Positions 2,480 through 17,536 of a stretch of DNA of 20,568 nucleotides are shown here, in pieces. The notes beneath the pieces are model-generated. The model saw nothing but the letters and a program-made list of their open reading frames with translations, was not told where the DNA came from and did no database searches. Both the position numbers and the translations under genes were made by a program. The stretch is taken from IMG/VR virus record IMGVR_UViG_3300005264_000093, positions 1 to 20,568 of that record. One strand, given 5' to 3'. Each line of letters begins with the position of its first letter. The first letter of the stretch is position 1. The stretch comes from a virus.

Positions 2480-3238
2480 CTACCTCGGAATAAAGTTAGT
2501 ATTTATGAAATTGGACACTGCCACACTCTCGGCTATCACTATGTCAGACGGGGGCGCGGGGGGTGCGCATGAGTACGGGGCTGTGGGTGGGGTGAAGTTG
2601 CTTGTCCATTCGCACACCCCCTTTTGCACCCTGATTTCATCAAGTGGTGCCATTATGCCCAGAGACGAGCCGGGCTTACTCCCATGCCTCCAGCCGATTA
2701 TCAAGTCACTTGTCGCTTCCCACTCTAGCGATGCACAAGTCCCTGTATGTATTAATACGCCCCCTTGAAAAAGGCGGACATTTGTCCCATCACAGGTTAC
2801 AGCAATGTGTGTCCATATCGCTAATGGGACAAGCGTGCCAACCGCTGTATGGGAAACCCCATGGCTACGGACTGTCAATTCCTGGCTGTTCGTGGTGGAT
2901 ATAATAAAGCCATTTCCAGATGCTTCTTTGCTTATTATATCCCTTGTCCAGGCTACGGCATCCTCTCGATACATCCAAAAATCAATAGTCGAGAGTGCCG
3001 TTCCGTCAGTCTCCAAATTAAAATCTGGGGATGTCGGAATTTTCAGATTCCTATAATACTCTCCCGCTAAATCGGACGATAAATCAATCCCGGTTGCCCC
3101 GAATTTTGATTGACTAGTTGAATGTTCCGCACCCTCAAATGGTGTTATCGGATGATTCCCAGGGCTACTATCAACAAAGGTATTATCTCCGTCAAACGTA
3201 TCTGAATGGATCAGTAATTTAGTAAATTCACATGCCAT
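2480..3238 (-). CDS. LamG/concanavalin A-like lectin-fold protein inserted in baseplate cluster
   Basis: The 252-residue product is a single LamG-like jellyroll domain. Visible marks are IDFWMYRED (about 85-93), DIISKE (100-105), FIISTT (111-116), IWTHIAVTCDGTNVRLFQGG (141-160), and MAPLDEIRVQKGV..WTSNFTPPTAPYS (196-224), the standard ending of this domain in phage proteins. Such domains bind glycans or other ligands, or serve as structural jellyrolls. In phages they are common in virion-surface and tail-fibre proteins. There is no signal peptide or collagen-like shaft. The last 20 residues (IVIAESVAVSNFINTNFIPR) may be an attachment peptide (inference). I chose ATG 3238 because it follows the hub gene by four bases with GGAGG upstream (in GGGAGGAGT); an in-frame start at 3325 would overlap the hub. 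Mu has no gene here, so this is an accessory insertion. Ligand and virion location are unknown. Confidence 0.85.
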   Translation of the reverse strand: MACEFTKLLIHSDTFDGDNTFVDSSPGNHPITPFEGAEHSTSQSKFGATGIDLSSDLAGEYYRNLKIPTSPDFNLETDGTALSTIDFWMYREDAVAWTRDIISKEASGNGFIISTTNSQELTVRSHGVSHTAVGTLVPLAIWTHIAVTCDGTNVRLFQGGVLIHTGTCASLEWEATSDLIIGWRHGSKPGSSLGIMAPLDEIRVQKGVCEWTSNFTPPTAPYSCAPPAPPSDIVIAESVAVSNFINTNFIPR

Positions 3239-3246
3239 AAGTTTAC
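3236..3246 (-). repeat. 11-nt stop/start junction repeat, gp44-LamG copy
   Basis: Second copy of GTAAACTTATG (see 2020-2030). It contains the TAA of the hub gene and the ATG of the LamG gene and may mark where the LamG gene was joined in. Confidence 0.75.
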
Positions 3247-4265
3247 TCCTCCCACGGTGCTGTTGCTGGTGTGCTGCCGTCATAAGCCCCTGGCATAACC
3301 AAGGATAGTGTGGCCGTATCTCCACCCTGCGTGGCTCTCTTTAACGCCACCGATTTAATCATAAAATCATACTCCTTGTAAACCATAGCTCCGGGCGCGA
3401 GTAATGACACAATATCACCAGGTTGCCACAACTTGCCGATATTGTCTGTCCGCCACCCTTGTACTGTCACACTATACGCCGCTGCGCTTGCGTACATGCG
3501 CCCCATCTTAGCTTTCACGAGATCCTGAATATCAACGCCCTTAGTGTCCTCAATCGTGAAGACGTGCGGACGGTACACGTCAGCAAGCAGAGGGTTAACG
3601 ACCTCGAAATCCTCACTAAACTTGGCTATACTGTGCGGTGATAGCCCTCGGATAGACGAGTAGTATTTTTGTTGATCAAAAGTAGGCTTAACACTCAGGC
3701 ATCGGTCATCATCTTGGTGGATAGCCGCCACGCTGTCTCCCGCCACAGGCTTAAAGAACCGCAAGCCCCCGGACGGTGTGTCAGTAAGTAGCAAGCCTCG
3801 TTGTTTGGCTAAACCTATCAGAAATTTTAGCGCTTTGCTGTTTGGCTCGCAAGCCACACGGTCGAATTTTGCGCCCGGCGAGTCACTGAACGTCACTGGC
3901 AAACCGAAAGCCCCCGCCACTTGGTCTGCTATCGCCTTAAGATCTACGTCTTCAAATACCTTTGGCCACTCACAGTCGTTGAGCACACCCGGCGCACCAT
4001 ATCCCCCGCATGACACGGTGGCACTCTTGGCGCTAACCTCCGGCGTTACGAACATAGGTCCTGTAATTATCGGCTCGTTGTCTATCTCAATACGCGCCCG
4101 TTGGTAACTGAATGGCTTAAAAGTATCACGCAATATTGGTACGTTTGGATCAAATGGGCTACCGAAAGAATACGAGCCAAAAGAGTCTATGTGTCTGTTG
4201 ATCTCTAAGCTAGTCCAGTATTTAAACTCTTTACTACCAACCAGCAAAGTTACATCGTTATTCAT
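3243..4265 (-). CDS. Baseplate hub protein (Mu gp44/gpP family)
   Basis: This 340-residue protein matches the Mu gp44 (gpP) hub family, equivalent to P2 gpD and T4 gp27, which links the tail tube to the spike trimer. The N-terminus (MNNDVTLLVGSKEFKYWTSLEINRHIDSFG) is the usual first tube-like domain. Further supporting segments are NDCEWPKVFEDVDLKAIADQVAGAFGL (about 116-142), LIGLAKQRGLLLTDTPSGGLRFF (about 169-191), and a C-terminal half with WQPGDIVSLLAPGAM and a late VMPGAYDG. The start codon overlaps the end of the gpN-like gene by eight bases, and the gene follows that gene as in Mu. In Mu the next gene would be gp45, but here a LamG gene intervenes. Confidence 0.92.
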   Translation of the reverse strand: MNNDVTLLVGSKEFKYWTSLEINRHIDSFGSYSFGSPFDPNVPILRDTFKPFSYQRARIEIDNEPIITGPMFVTPEVSAKSATVSCGGYGAPGVLNDCEWPKVFEDVDLKAIADQVAGAFGLPVTFSDSPGAKFDRVACEPNSKALKFLIGLAKQRGLLLTDTPSGGLRFFKPVAGDSVAAIHQDDDRCLSVKPTFDQQKYYSSIRGLSPHSIAKFSEDFEVVNPLLADVYRPHVFTIEDTKGVDIQDLVKAKMGRMYASAAAYSVTVQGWRTDNIGKLWQPGDIVSLLAPGAMVYKEYDFMIKSVALKRATQGGDTATLSLVMPGAYDGSTPATAPWEE

Positions 4266-5496
4266 AATACCGTAGCTCCCTACCCCTCGGCACTTCCAGG
4301 ATCTCCGTACCTACCAGCGCATTACTTGAGATAAAAAAATCCAGTTTGGCATCAACTTCCCCGTATAGTTCGGCAGTTAGATCAATTATCGTGCGTGGCG
4401 CTTGCAATATAAACACATGCTCCTGCAATAGCGTAAACGATAGATCCACCAGTTTTCCGGCGGCAATACTAGTGCCGTCAAGCATAGCTTGGTAGGTATC
4501 CCCCGTGTCTATCACGCCAAGTGTGGCACGGTTGGTGTCCCCCCAGTCTCGAACCTGGGCGAACCTGCCGAGCGTGACCTCCGCCGCGCTTATCGCGTCG
4601 GGTTTGGCTTCAAACTCCGCCTCCGTTACTGCCTCAATGATAGCCATTTGCGCTGCTTTGGCTATCAGGTCAGTTATAGCCAGGTCGTTCTGTGGCTGGT
4701 TGTCGTGCGAGGGTTGCGGGCTGTTGCCTGTCATGCTGTCAATTATGTTGCCGTATGCGTCTAGCTTGTCCTCGATGAGTGCGAGCGCCCTGCCCGGCAT
4801 GCCCACGAGTGTGTTGATCTCAGTGGCAAGCAGTAGCGGTGCTCCTATGAGCGCATTCATATTGTCCATTACCGCATCGTAGGCCGCGTCAAACTGTCGC
4901 TTAACGTCTGCCGTAACGGCTGCAACCTTGTTGAGTGCGCCCCGTACTGCTTTAAGCCTCGCCTTGGCCGCGTCAATCGCGCCCACTTCTTCACTGCTAG
5001 ATGTTACGTCTAAAGCTTCGTCAAACTCCGCTGGTGCTTTTTCTTCGTAGTCTGCGAGGGCATCATCTACCGCCTGCTCTGCGCTACTGTCAGCCACCGG
5101 AAAGGCTAGATCTATAATGGACTCCCAGAAAGTAACCTCAATAACTGCTTGATTGCCCGCTGTTTTTAACTGATCGACTTGGCGTATTGAGCCAGTCGGA
5201 ACCACGTTTTTTCGGCCATATGCAGGGTGCTCAAGTACGCCCCCGCCCCGCTCTTCGAGCGCATCATAAAACGCCTGGGCTTCCGTGTCGTAATTTTCGC
5301 CCCAGAAAAAAATCTTGAGGGGGTAACGTCTGCCCCCACGTCCGAGATCCTGCACATACGCGCCGTCCTTGCCTGGGAACGTAAAGACCGAAGTTTTTTT
5401 ATCTGTCTCACGGGTTACATCCTCGTAAAAAAATACAATACGTTCGCCACTCGGTGGGGTATACGCAGCTTCTTTTAGTCTGTCGGTCCAACTCAC
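4258..5496 (-). CDS. DNA circularisation / tail protein (Mu gpN family)
   Basis: A 412-residue protein whose N-terminus MSWTDRLKEAAYTPPSG, followed by VYVQDLGRG-like sequence (GAYVQDLGRGGRRYPLKIFFWG), is typical of the Mu gpN family. Databases often call it a DNA circularisation protein because of its N-terminal domain, but in Mu gpN is a baseplate or tail component, and that role fits its position between tape measure and hub. The middle (about 145-290) is acidic and helix-rich; the C-terminus is less conserved. I chose GTG 5496 because it lies one base after the tape measure stop with GGGGG eight bases upstream, and because family members begin with MSW. A TTG start at 5520 would add eight residues inside the tape measure gene. 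Confidence 0.88.
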   Translation of the reverse strand: MSWTDRLKEAAYTPPSGERIVFFYEDVTRETDKKTSVFTFPGKDGAYVQDLGRGGRRYPLKIFFWGENYDTEAQAFYDALEERGGGVLEHPAYGRKNVVPTGSIRQVDQLKTAGNQAVIEVTFWESIIDLAFPVADSSAEQAVDDALADYEEKAPAEFDEALDVTSSSEEVGAIDAAKARLKAVRGALNKVAAVTADVKRQFDAAYDAVMDNMNALIGAPLLLATEINTLVGMPGRALALIEDKLDAYGNIIDSMTGNSPQPSHDNQPQNDLAITDLIAKAAQMAIIEAVTEAEFEAKPDAISAAEVTLGRFAQVRDWGDTNRATLGVIDTGDTYQAMLDGTSIAAGKLVDLSFTLLQEHVFILQAPRTIIDLTAELYGEVDAKLDFFISSNALVGTEILEVPRGRELRYYE

Positions 5497-12758: not shown

Positions 12759-13130
12759 CTAAACCTCCTCTGGGTCAAGAGCGTTTCCGCTTTTAGTGCT
12801 GCGGGACATAACGTCCGCAAGTAACGCCTTAGCATCAAGCTCTTCATCACCAGACGGCGCGTCTGCGTCCGCCGCGTCATCTTCTGGGTTATCTTCTTGG
12901 CGATTCTCAACGTCGTTTTTGTTTAGCCCGGCGCTCATATACTTGGCTACAACGGTTTGCTCGCTGAGATTTTTGCCGCCTGAAATGCACTCGTGCGCGA
13001 AATCCACAGCGCCCGAACTTTTAGCCATCTCGATATGGCCGTTCACTCTGTCGCGCTCTTGCGCCACGCCGTCCCCGAAAACTTCATTATAGAGGGCGGA
13101 GTGGTCACGCTTTAACGTTTCCTTGTCCAT
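12759..13130 (-). CDS. Nu3-like scaffold, internal in-frame start within protease gene
   Basis: An in-frame ATG at 13130-13128, codon 230 of the protease gene, is preceded by a perfect AGGAGG (13144-13139) at eight bases, far better than the site of the full-length gene. The product would have 123 residues: MDKETLKRDHSALYNEVFGD, a helical region with AQERDRVNGHIEMAKSSGAVDFAHECISGG, and a very acidic tail (DNPEDDAADADAPSGDEEL). Lambda makes its scaffold Nu3 in the same way from within C. Independent initiation would yield scaffold in excess over protease, as assembly needs. Existence of the product is inferred from the ribosome binding site and the lambda precedent. Confidence 0.82.
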   Translation of the reverse strand: MDKETLKRDHSALYNEVFGDGVAQERDRVNGHIEMAKSSGAVDFAHECISGGKNLSEQTVVAKYMSAGLNKNDVENRQEDNPEDDAADADAPSGDEELDAKALLADVMSRSTKSGNALDPEEV

Positions 13131-13817
13131 CTTCTTGACCTCCTGGTCACTATTACCGCCTGGGGCGGCTGGTTTATTATCACGGGGCTTACGCGCCCCG
13201 CTCGGCAACATGGCTGCTATTTTCGCCACGCTGTCCTTTTCTTCTTCATCCGCTTTCATTTTGGCTTTGCATCCAGCAAGTGACGCTTGCACTTTAGCAA
13301 CTGCGGTGGCTCTGTCCATGTCCGCGCCGTCTTCGGCTTGCGTGATCTCATCAATGAAGCCAGCTTGCTTCATTTCGTCTCCGAAATAATACGTTTCGTC
13401 ATCCATCAAGCCCCGGATCTCATCAAGATTACGTCCGGTTTTTTTAGAATACTCACGTGCAAGCATTTTTGTAAGTCCCTCGCATACGTCCGCCGCGTGT
13501 CGCAAATCTCGATGGTCTCCCATGCTTATATTCCAAACATTATGGATCATAAACACGGAATTTTCCTCCGCAGTAACACGGTCGCCTGCAAGGGCAATCA
13601 CCGTTGCCATGCTTGCAGCCTCGCCGATAATGTGCGTGTTGACTTTGCCCTTGTAGTTTCGGAGACGATTAAAGATCTCGATCCCGTCCGTAACATACCC
13701 ACCAGGGCTGGAAATATCAACTCGGACATCCTCTCCGCCCGCGTCCTGCAAAGCGCGTCGAATATCGCGCCCGTCAACCGTCCAACCTATTACGCCGTCA
13801 ATTGTGATTATTTTCAT
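12759..13817 (-). CDS. ClpP-fold (S49-type) prohead protease with scaffold C-terminus (lambda gpC-like)
   Basis: A 352-residue two-part protein. Residues 1-180 are the ClpP-like protease: RVDISSPGGYVTDG (32-45) is the oxyanion strand, GEAASMA (65-71) holds the likely nucleophile Ser69, VFMIHN (88-93) holds the likely catalytic His92, and DDETYYFGDEMKQAGFID follows. Residues 230-352 form an acidic helical scaffold. In lambda, gpC and its internal product Nu3 share this arrangement; gpC forms part of the early prohead and the scaffold is cleared before packaging. I chose ATG 13817 because it overlaps the upstream stop as ATGA; the in-frame TTG at 13832 is less likely. Its own ribosome binding sequence is weak, so translation probably depends on the upstream beta-propeller gene. 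Confidence 0.93.
   Translation of the reverse strand: MKIITIDGVIGWTVDGRDIRRALQDAGGEDVRVDISSPGGYVTDGIEIFNRLRNYKGKVNTHIIGEAASMATVIALAGDRVTAEENSVFMIHNVWNISMGDHRDLRHAADVCEGLTKMLAREYSKKTGRNLDEIRGLMDDETYYFGDEMKQAGFIDEITQAEDGADMDRATAVAKVQASLAGCKAKMKADEEEKDSVAKIAAMLPSGARKPRDNKPAAPGGNSDQEVKKMDKETLKRDHSALYNEVFGDGVAQERDRVNGHIEMAKSSGAVDFAHECISGGKNLSEQTVVAKYMSAGLNKNDVENRQEDNPEDDAADADAPSGDEELDAKALLADVMSRSTKSGNALDPEEV
13139..13144 (-). promoter_or_regulatory. Strong internal ribosome binding site for the scaffold
   Basis: AGGAGG on the minus strand, eight bases upstream of the internal ATG at 13130. A consensus six-base match in the middle of a coding sequence, correctly spaced and in frame, is unlikely to be chance. 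Confidence 0.85.
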
Positions 13818-15115
13818 TGTTCTAGTATCCAACCAAGCGTTAAACCGCCCGGAATATTTGCCGATCCTAGTGCCGACACCTGATTAACTGACACATTCAT
13901 AGACGTTGTTGCATTGTCATACCCTGGGGGCGCTTGCTCTAGCCTGTACCCGCCGTCCGGCACTGCGACTGTGTATGTCACTGTTGCCACGTTGCTTTGG
14001 ATTAACGCCATGACACGCCTGTTGCCGTAGTCAGCTGCGAGGGTCACGCCGTTTACCGTGTCGTAAATTATGCCTTTGACATCCCAAAGCTCATGTGGCT
14101 CGTTAGTCGGTGCGCTCCGTGCGTCCCACCCTGGTATACCACTAAACCACTGGAAAGCTCCCGTATCGAGGCTCACAGCGGCAATCGCTTTAAGCCCCGA
14201 AGCATACGCAATTAGCGTATCATTCGGCCCTTCACAAACGCATGTTGGGTTTACTCCGTCTGCGTTAATTTCTATTGGTTTTTTATACGAGCGCACCCAG
14301 TCAAAATTGCTGGAGTCAACATCGAATCTGCCGATCTCGTCACGCCCGATGCAACAAACGTAAGCTTGATCGTTCCACATCCCTAAGCCCGTGGGGTACA
14401 TGCACTCGCCACGCTTACAGTACCCTAGAGCGTCGCCGTATTCCAGCCTAATCTCAACTAACGCGCCTGTTGCCCCATCAAGCTCGACCACAAAACCGTA
14501 GGTATTGCTTCCTGTCGCGACTTCGCCCGTCCCGTTGTATGAGGACACTAGGAGGTTGCCGTTTGGTAGCCACACCGCATCGTAAGGATTATACAGCCTC
14601 CCGTCTTCGGCATTGCCGTTTGTGCCATCCCCAAATGTCCACATGACCGCGCCCGTTGTGTAATTAAACACTCTCACGCAGTCGTGGCCGTACATGACTA
14701 ATGCAAGCCTGGTATTATCAGCGTTTATGTCGCCGCCCCAAACATAGCGGTAGCCGTCAGCCTCAGTGAATGGGTTGGCATATCGTCCGAAAGGGATATA
14801 TCCCTTATAGACCCAATCCGATGAGTATATGCCCACTTGGCCGTTGTAACTTAAAAGTAGTCTGTCGCCGTTCAGCAATTGCAGTATTTTAGCAACTTGC
14901 CCCACACCCTCATTGTCGTTATAGTAGCTGACTTTAACGCCGAAATTTACATCATCCCATCCGACAGGTGGTGGGTACTCCCTGTAAACGCGAGTAGCAT
15001 CTAGCGCCGCCTCAGCTTTCAGGTTAGCCCACCCCTCTTCCCCGATGGACGGAAAAGAGCGTTTCAAATTCTCATTCACGGATAAATCATTTATAAACGT
15101 CTGTAAACACGTCAT
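13814..15115 (-). CDS. Predicted NHL/YVTN-type beta-propeller protein in head cluster
   Basis: A 433-residue protein. After an N-terminal 70 residues (MTCLQTFINDLSVNENLKRS...) come about six similar blades, each with a pattern of P/D-x-[AG]-hydrophobic, a strand, a polar turn such as NG or GHD, then V-x-x-[FV]-[DN]. Examples are NGDRLLLSYNGQVGIYSSD, DNTRLALVMYGHDCVRVFN, NPYDAVWLPNGNLLVSSYNG, YPTGLGMWNDQAYVCCIGRD, NPTCVCEGPNDTLIAYASG and VNGVTLAADYGNRRVMALI. The last 60 residues (VTYTVAVPDGGYRLEQAPPGYDN...) are a separate small beta segment. No signal peptide or membrane segment. Propellers bind ligands or glycans, or act as scaffolds. Here, between portal and protease and sharing ATGA with the latter, a virion-surface or decoration role is plausible. 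I know of no characterised phage counterpart at this locus. Confidence 0.75.
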   Translation of the reverse strand: MTCLQTFINDLSVNENLKRSFPSIGEEGWANLKAEAALDATRVYREYPPPVGWDDVNFGVKVSYYNDNEGVGQVAKILQLLNGDRLLLSYNGQVGIYSSDWVYKGYIPFGRYANPFTEADGYRYVWGGDINADNTRLALVMYGHDCVRVFNYTTGAVMWTFGDGTNGNAEDGRLYNPYDAVWLPNGNLLVSSYNGTGEVATGSNTYGFVVELDGATGALVEIRLEYGDALGYCKRGECMYPTGLGMWNDQAYVCCIGRDEIGRFDVDSSNFDWVRSYKKPIEINADGVNPTCVCEGPNDTLIAYASGLKAIAAVSLDTGAFQWFSGIPGWDARSAPTNEPHELWDVKGIIYDTVNGVTLAADYGNRRVMALIQSNVATVTYTVAVPDGGYRLEQAPPGYDNATTSMNVSVNQVSALGSANIPGGLTLGWILEQ

Positions 15116-15664
15116 TTACACAACCTCGTAATATCCTTGAACCATGAAGCGATGTTTTACTAAGCCGCTGAAATCATCTTGCAGCTCCACGCCCCATTCG
15201 TCGTTATTGTCGCCGTCTAGCCTCAAAAACTGCCCGGCTTTAGTGAGTGTCCACCGTGCTGTTAAAAATTGATTGCCGCTACCCCAAGACCTTAAATCCA
15301 GATCGTGACAAAATCCCGCCACGTCCCCGCTAGTCAAGATCGGCGGCTGTCCACCGCTCACGATATACTGTCTTACTCCGTTTCTTTCGACGTAGGGCTT
15401 AAGTCCGTTAGTCAGAGTCAGACCATTGCCGTAATACCCTGAATCAAAAGACCCCGAATCTTCGACCATCAAAATAAAACGCGCTATGCGTAATATCTGC
15501 CCCGCTCCAGGCACGACCTTAAAATCCGTTGGCGTAACGTAGTTTCCGTTAGCGTTAGCGTTTCCGGTGCCATCCCCAACCACGTCAGCATACCTAAAAA
15601 ATAAATTCTTTTGTGGGCCTACGCTTTGGTCGATCACTCCCCCCTGATTACCGTTGCCAATCAT
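15116..15664 (-). CDS. Beta-rich phage structural protein of unknown role
   Basis: The 182-residue product is glycine- and asparagine-rich and strand-rich: FFRYADVVGDGTGNANANGNY, DFKVVPGAGQILRIARFILMVEDSGSFDSGYYGNGLTLTNGLKPYVER, then DLRSWGSGNQFLTARWTLTKAGQFLRLDGDNNDEWGVELQDDFSGLVKHRFMVQGYYE. The pattern (V-x-D-T/S-G-x-F-D, YGNG, LTNG, then W-x-G-x-x-F-L-x-x-R-W, and a closing hydrophobic strand) resembles a group of small phage proteins that I recall from environmental tailed phages, without a proven function. It may be a decoration or fibre-base protein. ATG 15664 overlaps the previous stop as ATGA, with GAGGG upstream; the stop is directly followed by the ATG of the propeller gene. Confidence 0.65.
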   Translation of the reverse strand: MIGNGNQGGVIDQSVGPQKNLFFRYADVVGDGTGNANANGNYVTPTDFKVVPGAGQILRIARFILMVEDSGSFDSGYYGNGLTLTNGLKPYVERNGVRQYIVSGGQPPILTSGDVAGFCHDLDLRSWGSGNQFLTARWTLTKAGQFLRLDGDNNDEWGVELQDDFSGLVKHRFMVQGYYEVV

Positions 15665-15924
15665 AGATCTACCCTCACAAGCCCATCTTCGTCCATGGTC
15701 AGCATATACACATCAATCGCTTGATCCGCGCTTATCTCATCTGACACGCCTTCTATGGCCGCGCCCTCATTCGGATCTGTTGGTGCTGCACCGCCTGCGA
15801 CCCGGTACGTCTGTCGGTAGCGAGTGCTTGCTTGCAGGATGTGTACTTGCCCGGCAGTAACTGCCGTTGCAACTAGCACCCATGCGCCTTTAGTGATGCT
15901 GTGGGTTGTCGGATTCGTCGCCAT
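15661..15924 (-). CDS. Small beta-strand phage protein of unknown role
   Basis: An 87-residue protein beginning MATNPTTHSITKGAWVLVATAVTAGQVHILQ, continuing YRQTYRVAGGAAPTDPNEGAAIEGVSDEISADQAIDVYMLTMDEDGLVRVDL. The pattern of GAWV-x-VA, a strand, Y-x-x-x-Y-x-x-x-GG-A-P, and a final VRVDL is that of small strand-rich proteins found beside structural genes in several phages, usually uncharacterised. ATG 15924 is chosen because GGAGG lies upstream (in CGGGAGGACG); the in-frame GTG at 15996 would give 24 extra residues entirely inside the portal gene. Even so the start overlaps the portal end by 35 bases. It forms an ATGA junction with the next gene. Confidence 0.65.
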   Translation of the reverse strand: MATNPTTHSITKGAWVLVATAVTAGQVHILQASTRYRQTYRVAGGAAPTDPNEGAAIEGVSDEISADQAIDVYMLTMDEDGLVRVDL

Positions 15925-17536
15925 GGTATGTCCCGTCCTCCCGTAACGCTGTGATGCTCTCGGATTCAGCAGGTTTAAGTAGCCCTGCGTCCACAAGGGG
16001 CTCCAGGGCTGTTGCTAACTGTTCGTTTTCAGAGCGTAAACGCTTGACATTGGTGCTGTATTTAGTCCCAGTCAACTCTTTACTGGCCCTGTCGTTTGTA
16101 ATCCATCCTTTGCGCGTCATGCGCTCATAAGCCTTAACCTCTTTTTCTCGGTCAACGCTCGGCTTGATGGCCCCCGCCCATTCGCTCATTATCCACGCGC
16201 CCAGGATCTCAAATTTCAGAGGGTCACGCCATGCTTCCAGTAGCCCCGGTGCAGAAATGCGCCCCGCTAGTGCCATTGACACAAGCCACTCTGAGTATAC
16301 TGGTTTGTCAAAAGCAACGGAATTTTTGGTGCGCTGTGCGTCTAAATATATTTTAAATTCGTTGATCGCCGCCCTACTCGCGGAATAATTATTGCTGAAA
16401 CTCAAGCGCAATATTTCCGGGGGTATCTCGTTTGACCAGGCGATAGCCGAAATGATCATTTCCTCAAAAACGCCGAAATTAACATTCGGTCGGCGGGTGT
16501 CGAAGCTCACAGGTTCCTCGCCCTGTTGCAACTCTTCAATGGCCATGCCAGGAACCCACTTGGAGATGTCGAAATCCCTCGCGGATTGGTCGCCGTCTAC
16601 CACTGTCTCAGTGTCTCTGCGTACCGCGCCCCCGGCTATGGGTCGTGTGCCTGGTTTATCCTCGCCTTTTTTGACAAATAGCGCAAGCATGGAATTGATT
16701 ACCGCTGCTCTTTGCTCTGCGTCTTTGTACCTGTCAAGCTCTTTGAGGGCTTGTAGTACGCAAGCAAGTAAAGGCATGCCTCGCACATCGTCAAGCCTTT
16801 TTTCCCCGCCGTAAACTAGCCAAGCTATGCGCCTGCCGCTCTTGCTGCCCCAGGCAGGTACGCGCTTGTGGCTCCCGTCCGATTGACATATAAAAAAAGC
16901 AACGTGCCGCCCCGCTTTGTCTAGCTCAACGCCGTTAGTTATTTTATTTCCGCGACGATCCACCGCTCTAAGCAGCTTGTCGTCTGTTGGTGTGTCGATC
17001 TTAGCGCCATCAACTAGCTCAATTACTGGCAGTTTGGTAGTCTGCAATTGCCTAAGCAATACAAGTACATCGCCCGATAATATGGCGGTTTTCCGAACCT
17101 CACGCTGTAACTCGCTGTACGTCATGCGCTTGCGCCAATCACACATGCCCTGGTTGCTTCCCCAGATGGTGTAACGCGCTTCCACGTCCTCCGCCCAGTC
17201 GTTAAGCGCGGTGTCAGACATACCCAAGATAGCACCGTTGGGGGTGGCTTCGAGGGTCATGCCTGTATTTATCTCGTTTGTTAGCAAGCGTTTAACAAGT
17301 CCGCCCGCATACACGTTTTCTGTAAAAAGTTGATAGCTCCGGGTGCGGAGCGTGTGGAAATCTATGAAAGAATAATTTTTTGTTGGCCCAAAACCGCCCG
17401 CGAATTTATCGCCGTCAAAAGACGACTCGAACAAATCACGGACATACCCGCGCGGTTGCGCTTTGGCTTCCGGCTCGTCCAGACGGTCGTATGCACGTTT
17501 AATCTTGCCTATAAAGTTTTTGGCTTTTAAAAGCAT
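15890..17536 (-). CDS. Portal protein (lambda gpB family)
   Basis: A 548-residue portal of the lambda gpB type (lambda B has 533). Supporting segments are the N-terminal basic helix (AKNFIGKIKRAYDRL), NYSFIDFHTLRTRSYQLFTENVYAGGLVKRLLTNEI (about 53-88), the MCDWRKRMTYSELQREVRKTAILSGDVLVLLR block (about 135-166), LKELDRYKDAEQRAAVINSMLALFVKKG, GVFEEMIISAIAWSNEIPPEILRLSFSNNYSASRAAINEFK, and the late SEWLVSMALAGRI. The NEIPPEILRLSFSNNYSASRAA stretch is diagnostic. Portal dodecamers form the DNA entry vertex, bind terminase during packaging, and later bind the connector proteins. ATG 17536 overlaps the W-like gene by ten bases, as B overlaps W in lambda. Confidence 0.95.
   Translation of the reverse strand: MLLKAKNFIGKIKRAYDRLDEPEAKAQPRGYVRDLFESSFDGDKFAGGFGPTKNYSFIDFHTLRTRSYQLFTENVYAGGLVKRLLTNEINTGMTLEATPNGAILGMSDTALNDWAEDVEARYTIWGSNQGMCDWRKRMTYSELQREVRKTAILSGDVLVLLRQLQTTKLPVIELVDGAKIDTPTDDKLLRAVDRRGNKITNGVELDKAGRHVAFFICQSDGSHKRVPAWGSKSGRRIAWLVYGGEKRLDDVRGMPLLACVLQALKELDRYKDAEQRAAVINSMLALFVKKGEDKPGTRPIAGGAVRRDTETVVDGDQSARDFDISKWVPGMAIEELQQGEEPVSFDTRRPNVNFGVFEEMIISAIAWSNEIPPEILRLSFSNNYSASRAAINEFKIYLDAQRTKNSVAFDKPVYSEWLVSMALAGRISAPGLLEAWRDPLKFEILGAWIMSEWAGAIKPSVDREKEVKAYERMTRKGWITNDRASKELTGTKYSTNVKRLRSENEQLATALEPLVDAGLLKPAESESITALREDGTYHGDESDNPQHH

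Follow-up and report, generated by a model that had tools for sequence, protein, structure and literature searches.

The structural module and the genes between portal and protease

The IMG/VR record was taken whole, and its 20,568 bp, "the window" in the following, are probably a genome fragment. On the minus strand are the structural genes of a phage with a contractile tail. The order is terminase, a lambda-type portal, the three genes w87, w182, and w433, a ClpP-type protease, a gpD-like decoration protein, and a lambda-type major capsid protein, followed by neck genes and then by sheath, tape-measure, and baseplate genes, with part of the tail gene roles assigned by eye. The region between portal and protease is called the slot. 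The features are as follows:

15890 to 17536, minus strand: portal, upstream border of the slot (PF05136, lambda family, E 4.8e-54; phrog_21, E 2.9e-70)
15661 to 15924, minus strand: w87, a small slot protein of all-beta fold and the proposed docking base (family matches, AlphaFold2, fusions)
15116 to 15664, minus strand: w182, mobile accessory domain (relatives in other phages)
13814 to 15115, minus strand: w433, probable six-bladed beta-propeller protein (one full-length relative, blade tests)
13955 to 14896, minus strand: part of w433 with six blade-like segments, residues 74 to 387 (blade positions)
14966 to 15115, minus strand: first 50 residues of w433, which lie outside the blades and are tentatively helical (low-confidence model; partly conserved in the relative L140)
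12759 to 13817, minus strand: ClpP-type head maturation protease, downstream border of the slot (PF00574, E 5.3e-26; phrog_94, E 1.8e-59)

The w87 gene runs from ATG to TGA, and its start overlaps the 3' end of the portal gene at 15890 by 35 nt. It is joined to w182 by an ATGA overlap, w182 is followed by w433 at a TAA-ATG junction, and w433 is connected by a further ATGA overlap to the protease gene, the ATG of which is at 13817. The original prediction of three such tightly packed genes, encoding proteins of 87, 182, and 433 amino acids, was confirmed from the sequence, as was the statement that the products are devoid of membrane segments (maximum 19-residue Kyte-Doolittle mean of 1.24 to 1.32); a signal peptide was found in none of them. 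The GC content of the three genes (0.49 to 0.55) matches that of the whole window (0.516), so there is no compositional break, and a horizontal insertion visible as a compositional island was ruled out. The three proteins had no match in Pfam, PHROGs, or NCBIfam, nor did Pfam and PHROGs link them to gpD, Hoc, Dec, or comparable decoration or Ig-like proteins.

The slot in related phages

The closest named phages, as judged by their portals, include Oceanospirillum phage PD0307, Shewanella phages SppYZU01 and SFCi1, Acinetobacter phage Scuro, Vibrio phage 367.14, and Pseudoalteromonas phage PY6. Scuro and Vibrio phage 1.223 have no gene between portal and protease. PD0307, SppYZU01, and 367.14, with portals 46 to 51% identical, carry in the same slot a single collagen-like protein, the C-terminal domain of which is exchangeable, and neither w87, w182, nor w433. 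PY6 and SFCi1 possess a gene for 80 to 90 amino acids, followed by one for 180 to 185 amino acids.

A total of 80 IMG/VR loci fetched by portal, together with the isolates, gave 63 nonredundant loci with both borders, of which 45 had a filled and 18 an empty slot. The filled slots contained collagen-like proteins, LamG/ConA lectins (as in locus L122), tail fiber-like proteins, or w87-type cassettes, with collagen, lectin, and fiber types as the commonest recognizable contents and a w87 relative in 10 of the 63 portal-seeded loci. Being empty in 18 loci and differently filled in the others, the slot is nonessential and variable, as are decoration proteins. The portal-protease junction is therefore a variable accessory slot in which surface-type proteins are abundant and other kinds also occur, which supports the proposal of an accessory cassette at this site.

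The richest adhesin-like set among the slots seen was that of L122 (4645 to 10083), with w87 followed by genes for 354, 178, 99, 432, and 668 amino acids, the last two of which have LamG/ConA lectin domains. Two slots of w87-containing phages harbored cell wall hydrolases, an M23 peptidase and an amidase (L097, 6439 to 6915, and L117, 7821 to 8267), an unusual place for such enzymes; owing to these peptidoglycan hydrolases, not all slot contents can be regarded as decoration.

Slot proteins sometimes carry an annotation as portal protein, and caution is needed. Six of them match PHROG families named portal protein (phrog_1289 and phrog_2271). In the GenBank entry of PD0307, "portal protein" is the name given to the 376-residue collagen-like slot protein (L003, 5378 to 6508), and the actual portal appears as "putative capsid protein." In view of this label, the assignment of slot proteins to portals is probably an inherited misannotation and was rejected.

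The w87 family

A profile search with w87 gave 64 family matches in the collected loci. The family comprised 43 nonredundant loci, and w87 belonged to a portal-adjacent gene block in all 41 with a readable context: immediately behind the portal gene (−52 to +91 nt) in 33 of the 43, elsewhere in the portal-protease slot in 2, and upstream of the portal in 6, here after the terminase where visible and with phrog_145 or phrog_146 portals. The remaining two loci were truncated. Two arrangements thus exist, portal-w87 and terminase-w87-X-portal, and the accompanying portals are from four families (phrog_21, phrog_145, phrog_146, and phrog_113). Because most loci had been fetched via w87 or the portal, the sample shows the position of the family, not its frequency. 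In addition to the portal-adjacent position, the members share a length of about 87 amino acids and the residues W15, PT48-49, D71, and Y73. The family is apparently absent from Pfam and PHROGs, in which its members yielded isolated marginal matches only. No match was obtained when w87 and two other members were compared with sequenced phage isolates, so that all sampled members come from metagenomes. A remote homology between w87 and the first slot genes of SFCi1, L020, and L069 (77 to 80 amino acids) was searched for and not found.

AlphaFold2, using 47 sequences, confidently predicted w87 to be a six-stranded all-beta domain (pLDDT 91.7, pTM 0.80). A search of the PDB with this fold gave no match with an E of ≤0.001; generic cupin-like folds were among the matches, and the matches listed contained no decoration or Ig-like family (gpD, Hoc, Dec, and similar). 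In the viral structure library, the top matches (best E 1.3e-4, TM 0.81) were small phage proteins with no assigned function. A further fold match with a TM of about 0.6 was I2FLS9 of Pseudomonas phage tf, judged by its length probably tf_60. This gene is in tandem with a second one, in the neighborhood of a short tail fiber and an esterase particle protein. Products of tf_60 and tf_61 are small beta proteins close to fiber genes with a predicted fold like that of w87; however, they have no sequence similarity to w87, and their genes are not portal adjacent.

The w87 domain forms the N terminus of two larger slot proteins, one of 617 (L081/L127) and one of 397 (L132) amino acids. These fusions are the main evidence for w87 as a mounting base. 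That a small partner may serve as attachment base, as originally predicted, is therefore supported for w87, a conserved beta domain that is usually the first in the slot and N-terminal in fusions, and a docking role may follow from these properties. In L128, L133, and L134, a pair of w87 paralogs is present per locus, in tandem in the latter two, which may point to hetero-oligomers or to docking at two sites.

Relatives of w182

Relatives of w182 were found in different surroundings. That of L010 (74% identity) is located between the terminase and an unrelated phrog_146 portal, that of L011 (69%) has a tail gene on either side in a podovirus-like record, and that of Vibrio phage 1.021 (31%) is upstream of a head-tail connector gene. 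Other distant relatives occur in L056, L064, L107, and L129/L130. Relatives of w182 and w87 co-occur three times, in the window, in L107, and in L129/L130, and some w182 relatives are without w87, beside unrelated portals or among podovirus-like tail genes. w182 is a mobile, mostly portal-adjacent module that moves between unrelated phages. Remote homology to the C-terminal domain of the collagen-like slot proteins was not found.

A MuF-like open reading frame of L010 (4124 to 5458, plus strand) has an apparent intein-like insert (CLPGDS...VVSNC), and a 304-residue reading frame resembling a homing endonuclease is on the opposite strand inside it (4442 to 5356, minus strand). Both were recognized only by eye, and an antisense endonuclease nested in an intein would, if true, be unusual.

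w433, a probable beta-propeller protein

In viral and genome collections, no relative was found with the whole of w433 or with its middle part as query, and a C-terminal stretch yielded L140, the sole relative. This 438-residue protein, from a 48-kb record (G051) that also has an integrase-like gene, is 48% identical to w433 over 411 residues, and the similarity extends into part of the N-terminal region. Its gene closes the virion module of G051, some 27 kb away from the probable portal, and is followed by genes for secreted, lipoprotein, and hydrolase-like products (roles assigned by eye). Directly upstream is a single open reading frame for 4,626 amino acids (G051, 22156 to 36036, also read as L142/L143). 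Neither w87 nor w182 is present in this record. Two other matches were discarded, the phage match H25, which lies in an apparent sugar transport operon without a propeller gene, and the Streptomyces match L139, a 24-residue stretch in an unrelated reductase-like protein.

Six blade-like segments, beginning near residues 77, 127, 180, 243, 292, and 346, have a spacing of 49 to 63 residues. In leave-one-out tests with blade boundaries set by hand, blades 2, 3, and 5 scored above 98.5 to 99.8% of the shuffles and blades 1, 4, and 6 above 83 to 89%. Curated propeller models did not agree with w433: there was no Pfam or NCBIfam match, and the NHL and PQQ_2 models were silent on the whole record. 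Against solved structures, the blade profiles and the L140 relative gave matches mainly to beta-propellers, all of them weak. The first blade profile matched the propellers of TRIM2/3 NHL, BamB, DrP35, and Pizza but also designed ankyrins; the likeness to the ankyrin repeats was gone once the L140 relative joined the profile. The combined profile gave weak matches to a neuraminidase, a YVTN S-layer protein, RACK1, a PQQ dehydrogenase, a tetrathionate hydrolase, and CIAO1, and also to nonpropellers such as MHC chains. Similarity to YVTN, NHL, WD40, PQQ, and neuraminidase propellers of the PDB is weak and at the level of blades, not of families. The L140 protein alone matched the YVTN S-layer propeller 1l0q with an E of 0.007. 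Weak genomic matches were to arylsulfotransferase and sorbosone dehydrogenase genes, and both families are propellers.

The AlphaFold2 model of w433 alone, without homologs, was helical for residues 2 to 46 and beta for most of the remainder, with a pLDDT of 34, and was for this reason left out of the fold search. Since weak matches converge on the same kind of fold, w433 is very likely, short of proof, a propeller, probably with six blades. Of the predicted features, the propeller with about six NHL/YVTN-like blades was supported as such, with blades 2, 3, and 5 clear and blades 1, 4, and 6 not, and the strand-rich character held well for w87 and for w433 only in a model of very low confidence.

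Since the L140 gene is far from the portal and without w87 and w182, the trio is an assembly of separately mobile modules and not a fixed unit. w433 itself is a mobile accessory protein of virion modules that is not head specific, and its mounting on w87 is unsupported. The suggestion that the three genes act as one unit was not supported, as relatives of w182 and w433 occur apart from w87, and no second example of the trio was found.

Possible function of the slot proteins

The best reading of these data, with about even probability, is that the slot products are mostly late-made virion surface proteins. w87 would anchor the cassette to the particle, its site being at or close to the portal vertex, the neck, or the capsid. 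w182 would be a mobile domain on or beside w87, and both w182 and w433 would face outward. The w433 propeller would bind a surface ligand, probably a glycan, resulting in weak, reversible adhesion to host cells or to the environment.

Capsid decorations that bind cell surfaces are SPP1 gp12, phi29 gp8.5, and T4 Hoc (PMC7602432). They resemble the cassette in proposed function and dispensability, and collagen-like members are also found in the slots of relatives, but no sequence relation of these decorations to w87, w182, or w433 was found. Propeller domains in accessory or adhesion proteins, as proposed for w433, occur in the receptor-binding proteins phi11 Gp45, PRD1 P2, and PhiKZ gp131C, which belong to the tail, the baseplate, or a vertex and have five or seven blades (PMC4901313), and a six-repeat NHL domain is found in the tail fiber of Nitratiruptor phages (PMC9723563). 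Unlike these, w433 is the product of a gene among head genes, and no stem or tail anchor domain can be recognized in it.

The main rival is that the slot is a permissive moron site, expressed late, and that the three proteins are not part of the virion but function inside the infected cell or during lysis. This is rather unlikely: the dispensability of the slot, the peptidase and amidase in L097 and L117, and the secreted, lipoprotein, and hydrolase-like neighbors of the w433 relative would agree with it, but the three proteins of the window have neither signal peptides nor membrane segments, the recognizable contents of other slots are most often collagen, lectin, and fiber types, and w87 accompanies the portal in four portal families. 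Alternatively, w87 and its partners may be neck or portal-vertex parts used in assembly or in a collar-like structure, with adhesion secondary or absent. The constant vicinity of w87 to the portal in both arrangements and the w182 relatives beside a connector gene and between podovirus-like tail genes fit such a role; however, many close relatives have an empty slot, so it is not needed for assembly, and its contents are too variable for a conserved assembly function, making this explanation unlikely. That w433 is a propeller enzyme acting, for instance, on a host polysaccharide or a small metabolite instead of a binding protein is very improbable, since the matches to the two enzyme families, which together with stretches strongly conserved in L140 (including PHELW and AADYGNRRVM) would suggest it, have E values of about 1 or more and span one or two blades, and no catalytic signature was recognized.

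The surface protein reading can be extended to w87 as an undescribed docking domain, a small beta module next to the portal in several phage lineages, onto which lectins, fibers, or a six-bladed propeller are plugged interchangeably, giving a new kind of portal-vertex or head appendage; this extension is possible but doubtful. The window also contains a LamG/ConA-like lectin gene (2480 to 3325, minus strand; Laminin_G_3, E 1.4e-14) among the baseplate genes, so that, in addition to the slot, the phage encodes another probable surface-binding protein.

Biological meaning

Of these results, the slot marked by the w87 family is the most useful, more so than the propeller alone. Head-borne adhesins are hard to recognize because they have little sequence in common. 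The genomic address, which is the portal-protease or the terminase-portal junction, in combination with the w87 marker offers a route to lectin, collagen, and propeller candidates across phages, and cultured phages whose slot is filled allow a direct test of docking. Accessory adhesins affect where a phage lingers and which hosts it meets.
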